A stretch of 64,000 bases of DNA, from assembly GCF_000633535.1 (NCBI RefSeq), contig NZ_AYMR01000007.1, forward strand, positions 310,001-374,000, given 5' to 3'. Of the stretch, positions 2,973-15,694 are shown piece by piece. Every line of letters begins with the position of its first letter. Positions within the stretch are counted from its first letter, which is position 1. The stretch is from Leifsonia aquatica H1aii (GTDB lineage: Bacteria > Actinomycetota > Actinomycetes > Actinomycetales > Microbacteriaceae). The notes below the pieces were generated by a model. The model worked only from the letters and a program-made list of their open reading frames with translations, ran no database searches and was not told where the DNA came from. Both the position numbers and the translations under genes were made by a program.

Positions 2973-2986
2973 GCAAACTAGTTTGC
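2973..2986. promoter_or_regulatory. LacI-family operator O1 (14-bp palindrome)
   Basis: GCAAACTAGTTTGC is a perfect 14-bp palindrome between the divergent MBL gene and the LacI gene. It shares the arm CAAAC/GTTTG with a second palindrome 68 bp downstream (centre to centre), as expected for a looping or autoregulating LacI-family repressor. Confidence 0.75.
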
Positions 2987-3041
2987 AAAACACGCACCCG
3001 TATGCCATCATGAATCAACGCATCACTGCATCAACGAGGAG

Positions 3042-3053
3042 CAAACCGGTTTG
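3042..3053. promoter_or_regulatory. LacI-family operator O2 overlapping the start codon
   Basis: CAAACCGGTTTG is a perfect 12-bp palindrome with the central CG typical of LacI-family operators. The TTG start codon (3051-3053) forms its last three bases. Repressor bound here would block the start of its own gene and so of the whole operon. Confidence 0.75.
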
Positions 3054-4067
3054 GTCAAAGCATCCAGTTCCGAGTCGCTGAACATCCAGACGGTCGCTGC
3101 GGCCGCCGGGGTCAGCAAGACCACCGTGTCGCACGTCCTGAGCGGCAAGCGCCCCGTCTCGCCGGCCACGCGCCGCCGGGTCGAGCGCGTGATGGAGGAG
3201 CTCGGCTACCAGCCCAACTTCTTCGCGCAGGCCCTGAACTCCCGGCGCAGCAACTCGGTGGCCCTCCTGGTGCAGGACATCACCAACCCGTTCTACCCGG
3301 CGCTCGCCCGCGGCGTCCAGAGCGTGGTCGCCTCCGCGGATCAGGTCGTCATGCTCTTCGACGTCGGCGCGGGGGAGGGCTTCCTGGACGCGTTCGTCCG
3401 TGACGCCATCCAGCGCCACGTCGACGGAGTGATCATCGCCGTCAACGACGAGATCGAACCGCAGCTGCTCGCCCTGCACGACGCGGGCATCCCGGTCGTG
3501 GGCGTCGGCTCCGGGCTCAGCGAGTCCCCCCTGGACTGGGTGTCGGCCGACGACATCGCCATCGGCACGACCGCGGTCGCCCACCTCCGTTCCGTCGGGC
3601 ATCGCCGGATCGCGACCATCAGCGGCCCGATCGACCACGAGCCCGGCCGGGGCCGGTACGAGGGCTACCGGCGTGCGGTGCGCGAGCACGGCCTCGACGA
3701 GTCCGAGGACCTGCGGATCGCGGCCGACTTCACCCGGGAGGGCGGATACGCGGCGATGAAGCGGCTGCTGCGCCTGGATCCCCGCCCCGAGGCGGTGGTC
3801 TGCGCGAACGATCTGATGGCGATCGGCGCTCTGGATGCCGCGCTCGAGGCCGGGCTCGCCGTGCCGGACGACATCGCGATCATGGGCGTCGACGACATCG
3901 ACGCCGCCGGACTGGTCCGTCCCGCCCTCTCCACGGTGCGGGTCCCCGCCGAAGAGATCGGGCGTGCGGCCGGCGACCTCCTGCTCCAGCGGATGGAGGA
4001 GCCGTCCACCGAGCCCGCACGCCACATCCTCGTCCAGCACTCCCTCGTCCGGCGACAGTCGGCATAA
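3051..4067 (+). CDS. LacI-family transcriptional regulator of the ribosyl-compound operon
   Basis: A 338-residue LacI/PurR-type repressor. The N-terminal helix-turn-helix with hinge spans residues 10-60 (NIQTVAAAAGVSKTTVSHVL, then VMEELGYQPN), followed by a periplasmic-binding-protein-like sensor domain (VALLVQDITNPFYPALARG, and later VVCANDLMAIGALDAA and IMGVDDID). The start is TTG at 3051 with GAGGAG nine bases upstream; no ATG or GTG suits the HTH. It is the first gene of an operon running to 12391, with 26 bp to the next gene. Two palindromes around the start imply autoregulation. The effector is unknown; a nucleoside, ribose or related compound is my inference from the neighbours. Confidence 0.93.
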   Translation: MVKASSSESLNIQTVAAAAGVSKTTVSHVLSGKRPVSPATRRRVERVMEELGYQPNFFAQALNSRRSNSVALLVQDITNPFYPALARGVQSVVASADQVVMLFDVGAGEGFLDAFVRDAIQRHVDGVIIAVNDEIEPQLLALHDAGIPVVGVGSGLSESPLDWVSADDIAIGTTAVAHLRSVGHRRIATISGPIDHEPGRGRYEGYRRAVREHGLDESEDLRIAADFTREGGYAAMKRLLRLDPRPEAVVCANDLMAIGALDAALEAGLAVPDDIAIMGVDDIDAAGLVRPALSTVRVPAEEIGRAAGDLLLQRMEEPSTEPARHILVQHSLVRRQSA

Positions 4068-4093
4068 CGGCACCCCTGAAAGGCACCACGACG

Positions 4094-5389
4094 ATGCATG
4101 ACGTCCTCGACAAGAGAGACCTCGTCCCCGACGAGGCCGAGCAGCTCCTCCACACCGGTCACGCGGTCGAGGACCTGGTCGCCCGCGCGCGCAGTGCGGC
4201 GGACGACGCGGACTACGGGGCACTCGAAGAGATCGAGCAGCTGCTGGTCGCGGCTCCCCGCGGCCCGCACTGGGCCTACGACGACGCCGACGGCGACGCC
4301 GTCCTGACTCCGCTGATCGACGCACTCCCCGCACGACCGGTCTCGGCGGACCTCGCTGAGCGCACCCACGGCGCCTGGCTCGGCCGCTGCGTGGGCAACA
4401 CGCTGGGCAAGCCGGTCGAAGGCCTGACCCGTGCCGAGGTCCGCCGCTATCTGGAGGCCGTCGGCCAGTGGCCGCAGACCGGGTACCTCCCGCTCCTCGA
4501 CGAGCTCCCCGAGGGTGTGAGCCACCTGCACGAGTCGGCGCCGTTCGCTGCCGCCGGGCGCTTCGAGGACGTTCCGCGCGATGACGACATCGACTGGACG
4601 ATCCTCGGGCTCTGGCTGCTGGAGCAGCACGGCCGCGCGCTGACGATCGACGACATCGCGGCGGCCTGGCTCGACCGGTTGCCGTTCACGCAGACCTTCA
4701 CGGCCGAACGCGCCGCGTATCGCAACCTCGTCCGGGGCATCCCCGCCGAGCGCGCCGCCCTGGTCGGCAACCCCTACCGGGAGTGGATCGGCGCGCTCAT
4801 CCGTGCGGACATCTTCGGCTACGCCTTCCCGGGGCGCCCGGCGGAGGCGGCACGGCTGGCTCTGCGCGACGCGCGGCTGAGCCACGTGGGCAACGGGGTG
4901 TTCGGAGAGCTGTGGGCTGCCGCGCTGGTCTCGGCGTCGTTCACGACGGAGACGGCGGCCGACGCGCTCGAGACCGCGCTCGCCGTGGTTCCGGCCCGGT
5001 CTCGCCTGCATGCGGCGCTGGCGGGTGTGCTCCACCTGTCGGCGTCCGGCGCCTCCGCCTTCGAGGCCCTCGACTGGGTGGACGACGAGCTCGGGCACTA
5101 CAACTGGGTGCACACGATCAACAACGCGGCGATCCTCTCGGTGGGCCTCCTCTGGGGCACCGACTTCACGACGACGCTCGCCCTGACGATCGCGGGCGGC
5201 CGCGACACCGACTCCTCCGCGGCGACCGCGGGCAGTGTGTACGGCGCCCTCCACGGGGCCGGTGCGATCCCGCAGCGGTTGGTCGGTACGACCCACGTCC
5301 GCGTGCGCAGCGCGGTCCGCGACTTCGACCGCGTCGCGATCGCCGAGCTGGCGGAGCGCACGACCACCCTGCAGGAGGCTCTGCGATGA
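4094..5389 (+). CDS. ADP-ribosylglycohydrolase family protein
   Basis: A 431-residue member of the ADP-ribosylglycohydrolase (DraG/ARH) superfamily, whose known members cleave N- or O-glycosidic bonds to ribose with two Mg ions. The domain begins near residue 90 (ERTHGAWLGRCVGNTLGKPVEG). The first acidic metal motif is DDDIDWT at 163-169 and the second is GGRDTDSS, with D371 and D373. An N-terminal helical extension of about 90 residues has no obvious function. Between LacI and a nucleoside hydrolase, ending in an ATGA overlap, it is probably a catabolic glycosidase acting on an imported ribosylated compound rather than a protein de-ADP-ribosylase; that is inference. Confidence 0.88.
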   Translation: MHDVLDKRDLVPDEAEQLLHTGHAVEDLVARARSAADDADYGALEEIEQLLVAAPRGPHWAYDDADGDAVLTPLIDALPARPVSADLAERTHGAWLGRCVGNTLGKPVEGLTRAEVRRYLEAVGQWPQTGYLPLLDELPEGVSHLHESAPFAAAGRFEDVPRDDDIDWTILGLWLLEQHGRALTIDDIAAAWLDRLPFTQTFTAERAAYRNLVRGIPAERAALVGNPYREWIGALIRADIFGYAFPGRPAEAARLALRDARLSHVGNGVFGELWAAALVSASFTTETAADALETALAVVPARSRLHAALAGVLHLSASGASAFEALDWVDDELGHYNWVHTINNAAILSVGLLWGTDFTTTLALTIAGGRDTDSSAATAGSVYGALHGAGAIPQRLVGTTHVRVRSAVRDFDRVAIAELAERTTTLQEALR

Positions 5390-6390
5390 GCGCGCTGCCC
5401 GTCATCATCGACACCGACCCCGGCCTGGGCGAGCCGGGAAGCGACATCGACGATGGTCTCGCCATCGCGCTGGCCCTGCGCTCTCCGGAGCTGGAGGTGC
5501 TCGGGCTCACCGTCGTGAACGGCAACGTCGACCTCGCCACCGGCGTCACGGTGGCCCGCGATCTCGTGGAGCGGCTCGGCCAGCCGGATCTGCCCGTGCT
5601 CGCGGGCGCCGACGTGCCGCTGGTGCGGCCGATGGGGCCGGTGCGTGCCCTGTTCGACGCCGTCCTCGGTGCTGAGCAGGTCGAGAGCCCCACCCGCCGG
5701 GACGCGGCGACGACCGAGCACGCGGCCGACTTCCTCGTCCGCACGGCGGCCGCCCGGCCCGGCGAGGTGACGGTCATCGCGATCGGACCGATGACGAACC
5801 TGGCCCTGGCGATCCAGCGCGACCCGTCGTTCGCCGCCAACGTCGGCGAGCTCGTGCTCATGGCCGGCAGCGCGACCGGGTACGCCCAGAACGTCACCGT
5901 GGTCGGCGACTTCAACGCCTACGTCGACCCGGAGGCGCTCGACATCGTCCTCCGCAGCGGAGCGCGCATCCGGATGGTCGGGCTCGATCAGACCTCCCGC
6001 GTGATGCTCACCCGCGCGGACGCAGCAGACCTGCGTGCCACCGGCAGCGGGTTCGGCGACTGGGTCGCCGACTGCACCGACGCGTGGATCGACTTCCTCG
6101 GCCGGGCCTTCCCGCTCCGGCCCGAGCACCGGGACGCCTGCTTCCTCCACGACCCGCTCGTGATCGCCGCCGTCACCCACCCGCAACTGCTCACCTGGGC
6201 GGATGCGGACGTGCGGACCGAGCTCGTGAGCGAGCTCGCCCGCGGACTCGTGGTCGCCGACCGCGGGCTCGCCCTCCAGCCACCTGCAGGAAGCAACGCC
6301 TCCGTCGCCATCGATACCGATGTCGACGCGTTCCGGCGGCTCTTCCTCTCGCGCATCAGCGCGGAACCCTCGCCCGCCCCGGGCAACTGA
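5386..6390 (+). CDS. Nucleoside hydrolase (inosine-uridine preferring type)
   Basis: This 334-residue enzyme of the IunH family would hydrolyse the N-glycosidic bond of ribonucleosides to ribose and base. The calcium-binding start is DTDPG at 9-13 followed by DIDDGLAIALA. The family DTDPGxDD motif is stretched by an inserted GEPGS-like loop, a form I have seen in some members. GPMTNLALA and the active-site histidine in FLHDPLVIA are present. The ATG at 5386 overlaps the preceding stop (ATGA). The following binding protein begins 25 bp later. The ribose released would feed the ribokinase at 9625. Confidence 0.93.
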   Translation: MSALPVIIDTDPGLGEPGSDIDDGLAIALALRSPELEVLGLTVVNGNVDLATGVTVARDLVERLGQPDLPVLAGADVPLVRPMGPVRALFDAVLGAEQVESPTRRDAATTEHAADFLVRTAAARPGEVTVIAIGPMTNLALAIQRDPSFAANVGELVLMAGSATGYAQNVTVVGDFNAYVDPEALDIVLRSGARIRMVGLDQTSRVMLTRADAADLRATGSGFGDWVADCTDAWIDFLGRAFPLRPEHRDACFLHDPLVIAAVTHPQLLTWADADVRTELVSELARGLVVADRGLALQPPAGSNASVAIDTDVDAFRRLFLSRISAEPSPAPGN

Positions 6391-6415
6391 CACAGCAACG
6401 AAGGAGTACCCGAGA

Positions 6416-7762
6416 ATGCCGAATCACAAGGATGTGACGCGTTGGATCGCCGTCGCGGCGACCGCGGCGATCACCGTCGCCGGACTCGCCGCCTGCAGCG
6501 GCTCCACCGCCTCCGGGAGCATCGACGGCGTCGCGCCGGCCAGCCTGACCGAGCCGACGGAGCCGATCACCATCACCTACGCGGGCGCCGCCTACGACGC
6601 CAAGCAGATCCAGCCCGTGCTGGATGCGTTCCACAAGGAGCACCCGAAGATCACGGTCAAGTACGAGGCCGTGCCGTTCGACGACTTCAACAGCGTGCTC
6701 GCCGCACGCCTGACCTCGTCGGCTGACTCGATCGACGTCTTCGACGTCGACATGCCGCGTACCTCGGCCTACGCGGCGCGCGGCTGGCTGAGCGACCTGA
6801 CGAAGACGTTCCCGACCCTGTCGAAGGAGGTCGACCCGGGCAGTCTGAAGGCGGCGACCGTGGACGGCAAGCTCGTGACGATGCCCTACCAGACCTCGAC
6901 GAACATCATGTACTACAACAAGACGCTGCTGGCGGCTGCAGGCATCACCCCGCCGAGCGCGGCGGCCGCGGACCGGGAGACCTGGGAGCAGGTGACCGCG
7001 GACGCCACCACGGCGAAGACGGCCGGCGCGCAGTACGGGCTCGTGTTCGACCAGATCGACCGCTACTACCAGCTGCAGCCGCTCGCCGAGAGCGCAGGCG
7101 GAGGAGCCGGAGGGAAGGGCGCAGGCAACCTGACCCCCGACGTCACGAACGCCGGATGGACCAAGGCCTTCACGTGGTATGGCAGCCTCTTCGCCGACGG
7201 CCTCTCGCCGCGCGGCGTCGCGGTGGCGGACACGCCCAACCTGTTCGCCGCGGGCAAGGTCGCCTACTATGTGGGCGGCCCGTGGTGGGGCACCCAATTC
7301 GTCGCCGAGAAGGGCCTCGACTTCGGCGTGGCCCCCTTCCCGGCGTTCGAGGGCGGCACGGCTTCCACCCCGACCGGTGGATGGTCGCTCGGCCTGAACC
7401 CGAAGGCGACCGCCGCGAAGGCGAACGCCGGAGCGCTCTTCATGAAGTTCATGGGCATCGACGACGGGGGCTACGCCCAATACCTGTCGGCACTCGCGGT
7501 GCCCCCGTCGAACCTGAAGGGCTCCGCCGCCTTCTACGGCTCCCCGACGTTCCAGGACCCGCGTTTCGCGGGCGTCGTCGACCTCATGAAGTCCGAGCTC
7601 GCCCACACGGCGACGCTGCGTCTCCAGACCGTGGGATACGTCGAGTTCGAGGACACCTTGACGAAGACCTTCGACGACATCATCAACGGCACCCCCGCCG
7701 AGAAGGCGCTGACGTCGGCCTCGAGTCAGCTCGACGACGCCTGGGCCAAGTACCGCAAGTAG
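6416..7762 (+). CDS. ABC transporter substrate-binding lipoprotein (CUT1-type, sugar-like)
   Basis: A 448-residue family-1 extracellular solute-binding protein. It has an N-terminal signal with lipobox LAAC and Cys27 as the lipidation site, then TITYAGAAYDAKQIQPVLDA and other segments typical of carbohydrate-binding proteins of CUT1 systems. It would deliver its ligand to the two permeases that follow. AAGGAG lies ten bases before the ATG. The ligand cannot be read from sequence; the operon context suggests a ribosylated or ribose-containing compound or an oligosaccharide. Confidence 0.93.
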   Translation: MPNHKDVTRWIAVAATAAITVAGLAACSGSTASGSIDGVAPASLTEPTEPITITYAGAAYDAKQIQPVLDAFHKEHPKITVKYEAVPFDDFNSVLAARLTSSADSIDVFDVDMPRTSAYAARGWLSDLTKTFPTLSKEVDPGSLKAATVDGKLVTMPYQTSTNIMYYNKTLLAAAGITPPSAAAADRETWEQVTADATTAKTAGAQYGLVFDQIDRYYQLQPLAESAGGGAGGKGAGNLTPDVTNAGWTKAFTWYGSLFADGLSPRGVAVADTPNLFAAGKVAYYVGGPWWGTQFVAEKGLDFGVAPFPAFEGGTASTPTGGWSLGLNPKATAAKANAGALFMKFMGIDDGGYAQYLSALAVPPSNLKGSAAFYGSPTFQDPRFAGVVDLMKSELAHTATLRLQTVGYVEFEDTLTKTFDDIINGTPAEKALTSASSQLDDAWAKYRK

Positions 7763-7829
7763 TCCCGCCGCACGCGGCGCAGTCGCCCGGTGCCGGATCC
7801 TCCGGCACCGGGCCCCGGGAGAGAGACAC

Positions 7830-8789
7830 ATGACTTCGGCAACACACCTCGACAGGGCGCAGCCGGCCTCGCCGCCGCGTGCGCCCCAGCACCGGCCCCC
7901 GCGGGAACGCGGGCGCCGCAGGCGCCGCGATCTCATCGCCGCGGCGGCCTTCCTGGCCCCGACGCTGGTGCTCATCGCGCTGCTGCGGATCTGGCCCACC
8001 ATCACCGCGGTGATCGATTCGACCAGGTCGGGCCTGCCGGGGAGCCTCGCCGCACCCGAGTTCGTGGGCTTCGACGTCTTCGCGAAGATGTTCGCCAGCC
8101 CGGCGTTCTGGAACAGCGTCACCCAGACGCTGGTCTTCAACGTCATCGTCAACCCGCTGCAGATCTTCGTCGCCCTGCTGCTGGCCGTGCTGCTCACTCG
8201 GGCGATCCCGGCCCGCGGTCTCTGGCGGACCCTCATCTTCCTCCCGGCGGCCGTCCCCCTGGCCGGATCCACCATCGTGTGGGGGATCGCGCTGCGGCCC
8301 GACGGACCCGTGAACGGGTTCCTCGCGCTCCTCGGCATTCCCGCCCAGCCCTGGTTCACCAGTCCCGACCAGGTGATCCTGTCGATCGTCCTGCTCGCCA
8401 GCTGGATCGGCATCGGCTACTGGATGATGTTCCTCATCGCCGGCCTCAACGACATCCCGCCGGTGTACTACGAGGCGGCGCGGATCGACGGCGCGGGAGC
8501 CCTCCGGACCTTCTTCTCGGTGACGCTCCCGATGCTGCGCCGGCCGTTGCTGTTCGTGCTCGTCGCCGACACAGTCTCCAACTTCGTCCTGTTCGCCCCC
8601 GTGCAGATCCTCACCAGGGGCGGGCCGGAGAGCCGCAGCGACTTCCTGATGTACGACATCTTCCACCGCAGCTTCGAGCTCAGCGACCCCTACCAGGCGT
8701 CGGCCCAACTCGTGGTGCTGCTGATCCTGATGATCGCGATCGTCGGAGTGCAGTTCCGACTCCTCGGGTCCGGGGAGGCCGACGAATGA
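7830..8789 (+). CDS. ABC transporter permease (MalF-like)
   Basis: A 319-residue inner-membrane permease with about six transmembrane helices and a basic N-terminus of about 30 residues. The cytoplasmic EAA loop that docks the ATPase is at residues 215-235 (EAARIDGAGALRTFFSVTLP). It is a CUT1 permease of the MalF/UgpA type. It overlaps the next permease by ATGA. No ATPase gene is in the operon, so a shared MsiK/MsmK-type ATPase encoded elsewhere is likely. Confidence 0.93.
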   Translation: MTSATHLDRAQPASPPRAPQHRPPRERGRRRRRDLIAAAAFLAPTLVLIALLRIWPTITAVIDSTRSGLPGSLAAPEFVGFDVFAKMFASPAFWNSVTQTLVFNVIVNPLQIFVALLLAVLLTRAIPARGLWRTLIFLPAAVPLAGSTIVWGIALRPDGPVNGFLALLGIPAQPWFTSPDQVILSIVLLASWIGIGYWMMFLIAGLNDIPPVYYEAARIDGAGALRTFFSVTLPMLRRPLLFVLVADTVSNFVLFAPVQILTRGGPESRSDFLMYDIFHRSFELSDPYQASAQLVVLLILMIAIVGVQFRLLGSGEADE

Positions 8790-9628
8790 ACGCGCGCATG
8801 CGCCTGCTCCCGCGCGTCGTCCTCGCCGTCGTCGCCATCGGGATATCCCTCGCCTTCCTCGTGCCGGTGCTCTGGCTCGTCGCGAGCACCTTCCGGAGCG
8901 CGACCGAGACGTTCGCCGCCAGCTCGCCCCTCAGCTGGCAGGTCCTCTGGCCGCAGGACTGGACGCTCGACAACCTCGTCTCAGCGGTCGACAGCGGGTT
9001 CCTCACCGCTCTGGGCAACAGCCTCATCGTGGCGGGGGTCACCGTCGTCGTCGGCCTCGTCGTCAGTTCGGCGGCGGCGTTCGCGCTCGCCGTGATCCCC
9101 TTCCGGGGCCGCGGCGCGGTCTTCACGATCGTGGTCCTGAGTTTCCTGATCCCGTTCGAGGCGATCGCGATCCCGCTCTCCCGCACGTTGAGCGACTGGG
9201 GGCTGGCGAACACGCTGGTCGCCCTGATCCTGCCCGGCCTGGGCAACGGTCTGGCCGTGTTCACCCTGCGCCAGTTCTTCCTCGGCATCCCGCCGTCGCT
9301 CTCGGAGGCCGCGCACCTCGACGGGGCGAACTGGTTCCGGATCTACTGGTCGATCTACCTGCCGCTGACCCGGCCGGCGCTGATCGGCGCCGGACTGATC
9401 CTCTTCCTGTTCCAGTGGCAGGCCTACCTGTGGCCGATCCTGATCACCTCATCCGACGCGATGGATCTGGCGCCGGTCGCCATCGCCAAGTCGTTCGGTG
9501 CGTTCTCGACCGACTACGGCCGGGTCTTCGCCGAGACCGCCATCCTCGCCGTGATCCCCGCGATCATCCTGCTGGCGCTGCAGCGGTTCTTCGTCACCTC
9601 CGTCGCGAGCACCGGGAGCAAGGAATGA
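8786..9628 (+). CDS. ABC transporter permease (MalG-like)
   Basis: This 280-residue partner permease has six predicted helices and the EAA loop starting at residue 174 (EAAHLDGANWFRIYWSIYLP). The N-terminal helix and the periplasmic FRSATETF segment match MalG/UgpE-type permeases. It starts within the stop of the upstream permease and ends in an ATGA overlap with the ribokinase gene, so transport and phosphorylation of the sugar product are translationally coupled. Confidence 0.93.
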   Translation: MNARMRLLPRVVLAVVAIGISLAFLVPVLWLVASTFRSATETFAASSPLSWQVLWPQDWTLDNLVSAVDSGFLTALGNSLIVAGVTVVVGLVVSSAAAFALAVIPFRGRGAVFTIVVLSFLIPFEAIAIPLSRTLSDWGLANTLVALILPGLGNGLAVFTLRQFFLGIPPSLSEAAHLDGANWFRIYWSIYLPLTRPALIGAGLILFLFQWQAYLWPILITSSDAMDLAPVAIAKSFGAFSTDYGRVFAETAILAVIPAIILLALQRFFVTSVASTGSKE

Positions 9629-10488
9629 GCGGCACCGTCGCCGTCGTCGGGTCGGTCAACCTCGATATCGTGATCTCGGTGGACCGGAGGCCCGGCGCCG
9701 GCGAGACGGTGACGGGCTCCGGTGTCCAGGAGGTGCTGGGCGGCAAGGGCGCGAACCAGGCCGTCGCGGCCGCGCGCGTGGTCCCCACCATCCTGGTCGC
9801 CGCGGTCGGCGGCGACGGCGCCGGACGCGCGGCGCGGGCGCAGCTCGCGGACGCGGCCGTCGGCACGGCGGCACTGCGTTCGTCCCCGCTGCCCACCGGT
9901 CGCGCGTACATCGTCCTCAGCGCGGACGCCGAGAACAGCATCGTCGTCGTCCCGATGGCGAACTCCGACCTCACGGCCGGCCACGTCGTGGAGTCCCTCG
10001 AGCAGACGGGGCCCTCGACGGTCCTCGCCCAGCTGGAGGTCCCTCCCGGCGCGGTCGCGGCGGCGGCGGCATGGTGCGAGCGATCGGGGGCACGGTTCAT
10101 CCTGAACCCGAGCCCGATCACGCAGGTGGACGAGAGCATCATCGCCGCCGCCGACCCGCTCATCGTCAACCGGCACGAGGCCGCCCAGCTCTGCGGGCTC
10201 GGCGGCGGCCACGACCAGCCGCTCGAGGCGCTCGCGTCGGCACTCGTCGGGCTCAGCCGATCGGTCGTGATCACCGACGGCCCCCGTGGCGCGGTCACGG
10301 CGGACGGCCGGGTCACCGATGCGGTGGCGGCCCCCGTCGTGACGGCCGTCGACACCACCGGCGCCGGAGACGCCTTCGCCGGCACCCTGGCCGCCCGTCT
10401 CGCCGCCGGCGACACCCTTCCGGAGGCCGCCCGCCGCGCTGTCGCGGAGGCCTCCCGACTCGTCCGTCTGCCGCGCTCGGAGCGGTGA
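9625..10488 (+). CDS. rbsK: Ribokinase (PfkB family)
   Basis: This 287-residue kinase would phosphorylate ribose to ribose-5-phosphate. The first PfkB signature contains GGKGANQA at 39-46, the form typical of ribokinase rather than fructo- or adenosine kinases. The second signature DTTGAGDAF carries the catalytic base Asp249. The NxxE motif appears as NRHEA. It follows the permease with an ATGA overlap. In this operon it would capture the ribose released by the nucleoside hydrolase and the ADP-ribosylglycohydrolase-like enzyme. Confidence 0.92.
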   Translation: MSGTVAVVGSVNLDIVISVDRRPGAGETVTGSGVQEVLGGKGANQAVAAARVVPTILVAAVGGDGAGRAARAQLADAAVGTAALRSSPLPTGRAYIVLSADAENSIVVVPMANSDLTAGHVVESLEQTGPSTVLAQLEVPPGAVAAAAAWCERSGARFILNPSPITQVDESIIAAADPLIVNRHEAAQLCGLGGGHDQPLEALASALVGLSRSVVITDGPRGAVTADGRVTDAVAAPVVTAVDTTGAGDAFAGTLAARLAAGDTLPEAARRAVAEASRLVRLPRSER

Positions 10489-10552
10489 CGGCACGTCCCC
10501 GCGGGGACGAACCAGCGACACCCGTGCACCACCCCTCACCGAAGGAGCACCG

Positions 10553-12391
10553 ATGAAGTCGATCCGTCGCGGCCTCGCCCTGGCCGCCGTCACCGCCCTC
10601 GCGCTGGGAGCGCTCACGCTCGCATCGCCCGCCGTCGCCGACCCCCTCTCCCCGGCGACGGGAGCGCGCCCCTCCACCTCCGGAACACCCGTCCCGGGTA
10701 CGGGCGGGGCGGTCTACTACGTCGACGCGGCGGCGGGCTCCGACACCAATGCCGGCACCTCGCCGACGGCGGCGTGGAAGACCCTCGCGCGCGTCACCGC
10801 GCAGACCTTCGGGCCCGGCGACGTCGTCGCGTTCGAGCGCGGCGAGACCTTCACCGGCTCGGCGACGATCAGTGGAGGCGGAACGGCCTCGCTCCCGGTC
10901 ACGGTCACCGCGTACGGGACGGGCGCCCAGCCGGTCCTCACCAATCCGGGCGGCCTCACCATGCTGAAGGTGGACGCGCCCTCCGTCGTCGTCGCGGATC
11001 TCGCCTTCACCACCGGGGTCGTCTTCGACAACGCCGACGGGCTCGGCATCGTCGGCCCGAAGTACGAGAACAGCGGCGCCGTCGCGATCACGGGCAACGG
11101 CACAGGGGCGCTCGTCCGGGACAGCACGTTCACCGACGTGGGCGTGGGCGTCAAGGTCTACGGTGCCGGCTCGAAGGTGCTGCACAACACCTTCCAGCAC
11201 CTCCGGATCGCCTTCCGCGGCATGGACTCAGGCCACGAGACCTCCTACGGAGCGATCGGGGTCTCGATCGACAACAGCCAGGTCGAGGTGGCGTACAACG
11301 ACTTCATCGACTGCCGGTCGACCGACAGTCCGTATGGAGCGGACGGCGGCGCGATCGAGATCGAGGGCTTCCTGCACACCAAGGACGACATCGCCATCCA
11401 CCACAACTACTCGCGCGGCTCCCAGGGCTTCCTGGAGGTCACCGAGACGACGACGTCCAAGGTCAGCATCACCGAGAACGTCAGCGACGACTACCAGCAG
11501 TTCATCGCCTGGGACACCACGACGACCCCGAGCGGATACCTGGCCCAGAACAACACGGTCATCCGCTCCTCCGACACCTCGAAGCTGTTCGACCAGTACT
11601 ACTACCGGGTCACCGGACCGACGCCGAGTGCGGCCTGGATCACGATCAGGAACAACATCTTCCAGACCGCGGGTCCGTTCAGCTTCTACGACTTCCCGCA
11701 CGACCACAACCTGTTCGCGCCCTCGGTCTCCCTGCCATACGCGCTCGGCGCGGGTGATCTGATCGCCACGCCCGCCTACGCGAACGCCGCGGGCCGGGAC
11801 TACCGGCCGACCCAGCTCAGCCCGGCCGTCGACAACGGAGCGGCGACCGGCGTGGGGACCGACCTCGCGGGCAACCCGCTCGGCGTCGGCCTCGGGACGG
11901 ACATCGGCGCCTTCGAGCTCCAGAGCTCGCCCTCCTCGACCGGGTCGACCCTGGTGAGCGACGGCGGATTCGAGTCCCAGACCGCGATCACGGCGACCTC
12001 CACCCCGTGGTGGAGTGACGGAGCCCTGACCTACGGGGTGGACATCAACGCGGGCAAGGCGCACAGCGGGCAGGACGACGGCTGGATCGCGACGTCCGGC
12101 ACCGGCTGGGGTGCACTCCGGCAGACCGTCGCGGTGACCCCGAACACGAACTACCGCTTCTCGGTGTGGGTGCGGACATCCGCCGTCGTGAACAACGCCT
12201 GGCTCGGCGCCAAGACCACGGGCGGGGCCGTGCTGGGGGAGGTGCGGCACGGTCAGGCGGGTGCGTACACGCGCTATGTCGTGACGTTCAACAGCGGCGC
12301 CAACTCCACGGCCGTGCTCCACGTCGGGCTCTGGGGTGCGGGTACGGGGACCTGGGAGCAGGTCGACGACGCCTGGCTGCAGCAGCTCTGA
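10553..12391 (+). CDS. Secreted right-handed parallel beta-helix protein with C-terminal carbohydrate-binding-like domain
   Basis: This 612-residue exported protein has a signal peptide cleaved near AVA-D (residues 29/30), then YYVDAAAGSDTNAGTSPTAAWKTL, the classic entry strand of Pel/PbH1 beta-helix proteins. Repeating beta-helix coils run to about residue 450. The last 150 residues (SDGGFESQ to the end) look like a jelly-roll of the CBM4/9 type. It may be a polysaccharide lyase or hydrolase that releases the substrate imported by the ABC system, but no catalytic residues can be assigned. GAAGGAGCACCG precedes the ATG, 64 bp after rbsK, and a strong terminator follows. Confidence 0.85.
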   Translation: MKSIRRGLALAAVTALALGALTLASPAVADPLSPATGARPSTSGTPVPGTGGAVYYVDAAAGSDTNAGTSPTAAWKTLARVTAQTFGPGDVVAFERGETFTGSATISGGGTASLPVTVTAYGTGAQPVLTNPGGLTMLKVDAPSVVVADLAFTTGVVFDNADGLGIVGPKYENSGAVAITGNGTGALVRDSTFTDVGVGVKVYGAGSKVLHNTFQHLRIAFRGMDSGHETSYGAIGVSIDNSQVEVAYNDFIDCRSTDSPYGADGGAIEIEGFLHTKDDIAIHHNYSRGSQGFLEVTETTTSKVSITENVSDDYQQFIAWDTTTTPSGYLAQNNTVIRSSDTSKLFDQYYYRVTGPTPSAAWITIRNNIFQTAGPFSFYDFPHDHNLFAPSVSLPYALGAGDLIATPAYANAAGRDYRPTQLSPAVDNGAATGVGTDLAGNPLGVGLGTDIGAFELQSSPSSTGSTLVSDGGFESQTAITATSTPWWSDGALTYGVDINAGKAHSGQDDGWIATSGTGWGALRQTVAVTPNTNYRFSVWVRTSAVVNNAWLGAKTTGGAVLGEVRHGQAGAYTRYVVTFNSGANSTAVLHVGLWGAGTGTWEQVDDAWLQQL

Positions 12392-12420
12392 GGCGCCGGG
12401 CGGCACCGCGCCCGACAGCA

Positions 12421-12458
12421 GGAACGGCCGGGAGGACGATCGTCCTCCCGGCCGTTCC
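12421..12458. terminator. 38-bp perfect palindrome, bidirectional terminator
   Basis: The sequence from GGAACGGCCGGGAGGACGA to its exact reverse complement forms a 19-bp stem with essentially no loop. It lies between the converging ribosyl operon and galK and so probably terminates both. It is GC-rich and lacks a T-run, as usual in actinobacteria. Confidence 0.85.
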
Positions 12459-12466
12459 GTCGTCGA

Positions 12467-14820
<2,354 letters not shown>

Positions 14821-14902: not shown

Positions 14903-15694
14903 ATGAGCGAACCGCTGCCCGCCGCCCTCCGCCGCGAACGGATGCTCGAACGCATCGGCCGCGCCGGCTTCGTACGGGTCAGCGAGCTGAGCGAGGAGTT
15001 CCAGGTCTCCGACGTGACCGTGCGCAGCGACCTCGACGCCCTCGACGAGCAGCAGAGCATCCGCCGCGTCCACGGCGGCGCCGTGCTGCGCGGTGCTGGG
15101 ATGCGCGAGGCGAGCTTCGAGGAGGCCCTGGAGTCGTCCGCGGACGAGAAGCGCGCGATCGGCCTCGCTGCCGCCGCACTGGTCGCCCCCGGCAGCAGCG
15201 TCCTGCTCGACGTCGGCACCACGACCGCAGCGATCGCCCGTGCACTCGCCGACCGGGAGGATCTGACCGGGGTGACGGTGATCACCAATGGGCTCACCAT
15301 CGCGCTGGAGCTGGAGCGCGCCATCCCACGGTTCCAGGTGGTCGTGACCGGCGGGACCCTGCGGCCGCTGCAGCATTCCCTGGTGGAGCCTCTCGCCTCC
15401 AGCCTGCTCGAGCGCGTGCACGCCGATCTCGCCTTCATCGGCTGCACGGGCGTGCACCCCGTCGGCGGCGTCACCAACGTGAACCTGCCCGAAGCCGACC
15501 TGAAGCGCGCCATGGTGACGACGGCGGAGCGTGCCGTGGTCGTCGCGGACGGCTCCAAGCTCGGCCGCACCCACCTCGGCCGGATCGCCGGCGTCGAGGA
15601 GGTCTCCGCCCTCATCACGGGTGCCTCCGCCTCCGCCGACGCCCTGATCGCGCTGCGCGAAACCGGGCTGCCGGTGACGGTCGCCGGGGCCTAG
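14903..15694 (+). CDS. DeoR/GlpR-family transcriptional regulator of galactose genes
   Basis: This 263-residue regulator has an N-terminal DeoR winged helix (RRERMLERIGRAGFVRVSELSEEFQVSDVTVRSDLDAL, then IRRVHGGAVL) and a C-terminal DeoR sensor domain (LDVGTTTAAIARAL, VVTGGTLRPLQHSLVEP, VVVADGSKLGRTHLG), which in this family binds a phosphorylated sugar. An effector such as galactose-1-phosphate is inference from position. I start at ATG 14903; ATG 14894 is equally readable, and longer versions run into the promoter. Its TAG stop lies inside the -10 box of the following galM-like gene. Confidence 0.92.
   Translation: MSEPLPAALRRERMLERIGRAGFVRVSELSEEFQVSDVTVRSDLDALDEQQSIRRVHGGAVLRGAGMREASFEEALESSADEKRAIGLAAAALVAPGSSVLLDVGTTTAAIARALADREDLTGVTVITNGLTIALELERAIPRFQVVVTGGTLRPLQHSLVEPLASSLLERVHADLAFIGCTGVHPVGGVTNVNLPEADLKRAMVTTAERAVVVADGSKLGRTHLGRIAGVEEVSALITGASASADALIALRETGLPVTVAGA

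Follow-up and report, generated by a model that had tools for sequence, protein, structure and literature searches.

An operon of Leifsonia aquatica with two riboside-type hydrolases, a CUT1-type importer and a secreted beta-helix protein as a candidate pentofuranose utilisation unit

What compound is taken up and degraded by an operon that sets two hydrolases of riboside-cleaving families beside a sugar importer, a ribokinase-like kinase and a secreted beta-helix protein? The question is raised by Leifsonia aquatica H1aii, where such an operon spans 2973..12391 of the stretch analysed here (the window: 64,000 nucleotides with a G+C content of 71%, part of contig C7 in a genome of 4.58 Mb). 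An earlier note on this DNA had described the locus as a LacI-controlled operon for scavenging ribosyl compounds. The gene content and order, the conservation as one unit, the conserved operator and the domain kinship of the products are plain from our data. On balance, with about as much belief as doubt, we read the operon as a unit, repressed by LacI, through which the cell uses a pentofuranosyl compound; this compound most likely contains D-ribofuranosyl residues (an oligomer or polymer).

Gene order, operator and conservation of the operon

The operon consists of eight open reading frames (ORFs), all on the + strand and all confirmed. The features are as follows:

2973..2986, operator O1, palindrome GCAAACTAGTTTGC
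3041..3054, operator O2, GCAAACCGGTTTGG, covering the start region of lacI
3051..4067, + strand, LacI-family regulator, TTG start, Pfam PF00356/PF13377
4094..5389, + strand, ADP-ribosylglycohydrolase (ARH)-fold hydrolase, PF03747 at residues 93-395, N-terminal extension of ~90 residues
5386..6390, + strand, nucleoside hydrolase (NH), PF01156
6416..7762, + strand, sugar-binding protein (SBP), PF01547, lipobox LAAC assigned by eye
7830..8789, + strand, CUT1-type permease P1, BPD_transp_1
8786..9628, + strand, CUT1-type permease P2, BPD_transp_1
9625..10488, + strand, ribokinase-like PfkB kinase, PF00294
10553..12391, + strand, secreted beta-helix protein (BH), signal peptide by eye, right-handed beta-helix ~47-454, C-terminal module ~465-610
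12421..12458, hairpin of 17 pairs with a 4-nt loop, between BH and a convergent galactokinase

Three joints (ARH/NH, P1/P2 and P2/kinase) are 4-nt ATGA overlaps, and the remaining intergenic gaps measure 26, 25, 67 and 64 nt. With the Pfam assignments, these bear out the close packing of eight genes reported in the earlier note. The 84-nt stretch 12392-12475, which contains the 17-pair hairpin, has z = -6.41. Although no T run follows it, the hairpin is a putative terminator and, together with the convergent galactokinase after BH, suggests that the operon probably ends there.

A scan with the window ARH over one genome per species (84,980 species) gave 30 loci. The order LacI-ARH-NH-SBP-P1-P2-kinase-BH recurs in six of them (L002, L003, L004, L006, L023 and L025; hosts a Rhodoglobus metagenome-assembled genome (MAG), an Actinomycetota MAG, two Leifsonia and two Microbacterium), with the kinase missing from L023. 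A further copy, L037, came from a BH search of 299 genomes of the family, giving eight distinct copies with the window included. Repeated records were dropped from the counts: L038 is the same record as L003 (225/225 60-mers), L042/G601 equals L025 (233/250, the rest lying beyond the compared range), L043 equals L012 (272/272) and L044/G800 equals L008 (233/233). DNA identity among the copies is 63-86%. Among the flanks compared, at ~3 kb per side (tblastx 1e-15), a match was confined to the right flanks of L006 and L025. The BH searches retrieved the full-length protein from 3 of the 299 family genomes (E 1e-20) and from 2 of 396 genomes of the order (E 1e-40), own genome included in both; all four genomes concerned have the operon, and no full-length BH turned up outside operon carriers. 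The operon is rare.

The operator, GCAAAC-YR-GTTTGC, is the palindrome GCAAACYRGTTTGC and lies upstream of lacI in 8/8 operon copies; a second site occurs in strict form in L037 and in looser form in L006 and L025. In the window, the search returned two sites, each read on both strands. These four matches, one of them with a mismatch, compare with an expectation of 0.06, and 0/100 shuffles reached four, so the double operator of the earlier note is real. O2 overlaps the TTG start of lacI, a position that points to autoregulation. As there are eight distinct copies of one order, with mostly unlike flanks and the operator in every copy, we consider the operon a true unit, and the proposal that the gene set would be kept together in relatives is confirmed.

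Variants of the layout were also seen. L037 (12266-16239) has two tandem BH genes, 62% and 60% identical to the window BH. L023 is the sole copy without a kinase: at 15582-15690 its BH follows ~100 nt after P2, and a search of the locus for a kinase-like stretch found none. In the Promicromonospora locus L024, LacI, ARH and NH are 57, 61 and 52% identical to those of the window, the permeases only 27-29%, and no kinase or BH match was found; a strict operator core begins 42 nt upstream of its ARH. This core was not found in the remaining 23 of the 30 ARH loci.

A proposed route for a pentofuranosyl compound

ARH-type enzymes cleave alpha-ribosyl bonds, and NHs cleave beta-N-ribosyl bonds. The window ARH matches PF03747 with 157.1 bits (cut-off 26.2), and its acidic residues E109, D163-D165, D371 and D373 are invariant across 20 sequences; we presume for them the metal-site roles of DraG, whose GDALG stretch reads GNTLG here. 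The NH matches PF01156 with 242.1 bits (cut-off 34.2) and keeps both the calcium motif, DTDPG-(7-residue insert)-IDD, and the terminal HDP motif, the insert being present in some form in 5 of 21 comparison NHs. Its Asp175 stands at a position that is usually Glu: Asp occupies it in 8/8 operon NHs and in L024 (9/9), and the 21 comparison NHs, seven of them from the same genome, have 19 Glu, one Ser (L054) and one Asp (the divergent L058). We take this position to be Glu166 of the crithidial NH, a contact of the ribose 5'-OH. The correspondence is not confirmed in the review PMC8910321. The exchange of Asp for Glu suggests a changed fit around C5 in the operon NHs.

The other products complete a catabolic set. 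For the kinase, each of the 14 solved structures matched at 1e-20 carries the name ribokinase, and the best of 16 models listed is the ribokinase equivalog TIGR02152 (211.4 of 299.65 bits); for the regulator, the best of 20 models listed is NCBIfam RbsR (NF047341; 226.8 of 382 bits). As both lie under the equivalog cut-offs, ribokinase-like and RbsR-like are the furthest names warranted, a correction to the earlier note. The nearest solved structures of the SBP are acarbose/maltose-type and sulfoquinovosyl-glycerol-type binders; since these bind oligosaccharides or glycosides, an oligosaccharide or glycoside would fit as its ligand.

BH has no Pfam match at 0.001, with CBM_4_9 at 0.0057, under the cut-off, and matches NCBIfam choice-of-anchor Q with 26.6 bits (cut-off 25). 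Residues ~47-454 have the beta-helix fold; only residues ~46-149 match GH136-type lacto-N-biosidase entries, and in the fold comparison several GH and PL families (GH136, GH141, PL6, GH91 and others) lie close together. The nearest counterpart of the C-terminal module is the module of the endo-D-arabinanase EndoMA1 that putatively binds D-arabinan, with one sugar-site core kept. A partial BH match in the same genome, on contig C22, is a different beta-helix protein. This second secreted protein (L039, 904-2967; PF13229) adjoins other CUT1-type permeases and has the N-terminal part in common with BH, with a differing C-terminal end (a weak F5/8-type match).

From these features we infer the activities, the ribose product and the substrate. 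BH would bind, through its C-terminal module, an extracellular furanose-containing polymer or glycoconjugate and probably cut or loosen it on the beta-helix. The lipoprotein SBP and the two permeases would import the oligomer or glycoside, presumably with a shared ATPase encoded elsewhere. Inside the cell, ARH and NH would split two kinds of glycosidic bond, and the ribokinase-like kinase would phosphorylate the freed ribose to the 5-phosphate, which would enter the pentose phosphate pathway. LacI would repress the operon from O1 and O2, and its effector is probably ribose or a riboside. The pairing of two riboside-type hydrolases with a ribokinase-like kinase is the pointer to a pentofuranose. 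As substrates we propose a capsular or wall ribofuranan or the ribosyl-adenosine core of poly(ADP-ribose); the latter has alpha-ribosyl-ribose and beta-N-ribosyl bonds, for which just an ARH and an NH would be required.

Several observations weigh against this route. Kinase, regulator and NH all fall under their equivalog cut-offs; the NH reaches 162.2 of 382 bits for RihC, 161.5 of 450 for UriH, 143.5 of 433 for RihA and 115 of 459 for ribosylpyrimidine nucleosidase, and the window proteins score far under the UriR and UriH cut-offs of NCBIfam. The kinase is absent from L023. The predicted model of BH is weak (mean pLDDT 57.3), with catalytic residues not assigned, and its four EndoMA1 subsite B-D contacts are not conserved. 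In Foldseek, EndoMA1 (E 2.2e-8) is nearly equalled by a phage tail fibre (2.3e-8), though at a root-mean-square deviation of 21 A, and the EndoMA1 module, in the authors' own words on it, is not yet an established carbohydrate-binding module (PMC10509167). Finally, CUT1 clusters that contain GH36, alcohol dehydrogenase (ADH), Gfo/Idh or ThuA genes, and mostly no NH, have ARHs that are 57-66% identical to that of the window where measured.

Alternative readings

These clusters support the possibility, which we regard as unlikely but serious, that ARH and NH were recruited to a furanoside or hexoside without ribose; such a recruitment is probable for the ARH of the GH36/Gfo-Idh clusters. CUT1-type permease matches occur in 23 of the 30 ARH loci, NH in just 8/30 and ribokinase-like kinases in 8/30. 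A second ARH context combines a ROK regulator, CUT1 genes, ARH, GH36, a zinc-type ADH and Gfo/Idh, to which Arthrobacter loci add a TIM-barrel isomerase and ThuA, and L016, L017 and L020 a window-like kinase; this gene content suggests a pathway for alpha-galactosides or keto-sugars. The GH36 cluster was seen in nine ARH loci (L017, 299-11302; also L008, L013, L015, L018, L019, L020, L021 and L022), eight of them without an NH match and L008 with an NH at 41%. The ARH therefore need not be ribose-specific, nor should an ADP-ribosyl substrate be read from the family name. The equivalog scores of kinase and NH also fit this alternative. Against it, the NH retains the Asp residues of its calcium motif as well as HDP, and the 14 solved matches of the kinase at 1e-20 all bear the name ribokinase. 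The ribosyl scavenging proposed earlier is supported in part, as a regulated catabolic unit with an exported partner and a hydrolase-kinase logic that points to a pentofuranose; the GH36-cluster ARHs speak against a simple reading of the ARH.

The wider ARH clade was sampled in 394 genomes of the class (E 1e-60), with 84 matches in 67 genomes. At least 48/84 have a PfkB kinase within ~5 kb and at least 45/84 within ~500 bp. These lower bounds come from 57 of the 150 PfkB rows listed, picked by eye for contigs in common with ARH matches, with the window kinase added by hand and distances that assume a 900-nt kinase. An NH lies within 20 kb in only 2/84 (the window and G800 = L008). Hence the ARH-kinase pair is the general theme, and the operon stands out by its NH and BH. 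In two loci, L046 (3514-8378, genome G714) and L047 (360-9030, genome G794), a PfkB kinase comes after a run of three ARH paralogues, and L047 also has CUT1-type permeases.

Ordinary nucleoside scavenging, in which the CUT1 importer takes up nucleosides, NH splits them, the kinase takes the ribose and ARH and BH are accessory, is improbable. We take the corynebacterial UriR/UriH gene cluster to follow this scheme. NH and ribokinase under a LacI/RbsR-type regulator are also described in the bifidobacterial RbsR2/RbsR3 regulons (PMC4746261). However, the genome has eight NHs, and on contigs C6, C5 and C8 at least three of the others have a PfkB kinase within ~5 kb, so ordinary nucleosides are probably handled elsewhere. 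The Asp of the operon NH where 19/21 comparison NHs have Glu, the oligosaccharide- or glycoside-binding relatives of the SBP, and the presence of BH in all eight copies likewise argue against the scheme, to which ARH would be superfluous.

The kinship of the BH module to EndoMA1 of Microbacterium arabinogalactanolyticum raises the idea of a locus for D-arabinan (of mycobacterial arabinogalactan or lipoarabinomannan), with BH as a new endo-D-arabinanase, which we hold to be quite improbable. We assume that the D-arabinose isomerase of a D-arabinan locus would be of the FucI type. FucI-type isomerases (PF07881) were over the cut-off in 0/8 carriers, with one weak match in the L023 genome, other isomerase families not being searched. 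GH183 (PF13810) was found neither in the window's genome nor over the cut-off in any of 8 carriers (partial match of 38.6 of 39.5 bits in the L004 genome), and GH172 (PF11175) was absent from the window's genome and present in 2/8 carriers (L004 and L006 genomes); GH116 was not searched. These counts make D-arabinan unlikely, the operon has no isomerase, and the subsite B-D arabinan contacts are not conserved in BH. D-ribose, unlike the D-arabinan route, needs just the operon's own kinase.

A protein de-ADP-ribosylation or NAD-related system is hardly credible, since its support, the ARH family name and the Brachybacterium locus L007, where ARH is followed after ~0.3 kb by a phosphoribosyltransferase-type gene and then a nicotinamide phosphoribosyltransferase, is met by a DraG equivalog score (TIGR02662) of 29.2 of 337.05 bits that sets the ARH apart from DraG, by no Pfam ADP-ribosyltransferase among the eight operon genes, by the catabolic partners importer and kinase, and by the fact that L007 is 1/30 loci. 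In L007 (10001-14594) the phosphoribosyltransferase-type gene has both Pfam scores under the cut-off, and the third gene is NUDIX-like by eye with no Pfam match.

Known systems and the meaning of the operon

We compared the operon, as a pentofuranosyl utilisation unit, with described systems. The corynebacterial uriR-uriH-rbsK cluster has a LacI-family regulator, NH and ribokinase as in the operon, and is not known to include ARH, CUT1 or a secreted beta-helix. A ribose-scavenging locus of Bacteroides thetaiotaomicron, that of Glowacki et al. in 2020, is presumably the one at BT2804. From BT2804 onward, ribokinase, TonB receptor, SusD, DUF4969, NH and permease stand together (PMC10434189), so that, as in the operon, NH, ribokinase and a dedicated importer form one locus, but import is by TonB/SusD rather than CUT1, and the passages on BT2804 mention no ARH or beta-helix. 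The bifidobacterial RbsR2/RbsR3 regulons agree in LacI-family regulator, NH and ribokinase and differ in that their description has no ARH, CUT1 or secreted beta-helix (PMC4746261). E. coli yegTUV (the GgaR/YegW regulon), linked by its authors to glycogen/ADP-glucose, resembles the operon in its transporter, ARH-fold protein and PfkB-type kinase; unlike the operon, it is described with a major facilitator superfamily nucleoside symporter, no NH and no secreted protein (PMC10819704).

The D-arabinan locus of M. arabinogalactanolyticum, with GH183, GH172, GH116, a putative isomerase and a kinase, shares with the operon a secreted depolymerase with a related C-terminal module, an ABC importer, intracellular exo-hydrolases and a kinase, but is reported to have GH183, GH172, GH116 and the isomerase where the operon has beta-helix, ARH and NH (PMC10509167). 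The actinobacterial loci L017 and L047 also join a CUT1 importer, ARH and PfkB kinase; where the operon has NH and BH, L017 has GH36, Gfo/Idh and ADH, and L047 has three ARHs. An ARH adjoining a PfkB kinase is a wide actinobacterial pattern, found in E. coli yegUV as well (PMC10819704), and within the literature covered no substrate was found for such ARH-fold proteins. As far as these sources go, no compared system combines ARH, NH, CUT1 and a secreted beta-helix. The statement in the earlier note that no described pathway has exactly this set agrees with our literature search, which found none; the relevant part of PMC10434189 names four of the components at separate loci.

A stronger form of our proposal, which we offer as tentative and doubtful, is that the operon would be the first utilisation locus for a D-ribofuranose polymer or oligomer, with BH as a depolymerase of a new kind; the enzymes of the ARH clade would then be alpha-pentofuranosidases with PfkB kinase partners, not de-ADP-ribosylases. 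If ribose is indeed gained from a ribofuranan, BH would found a new family of depolymerases, and the ARH fold would acquire a new role as a glycosidase. By setting ARH beside NH, a ribokinase-like kinase and a furanan-type binding module, the operon yields a short, testable list of substrates, and so offers a route to the substrate of a common, little-studied family of ARH enzymes.

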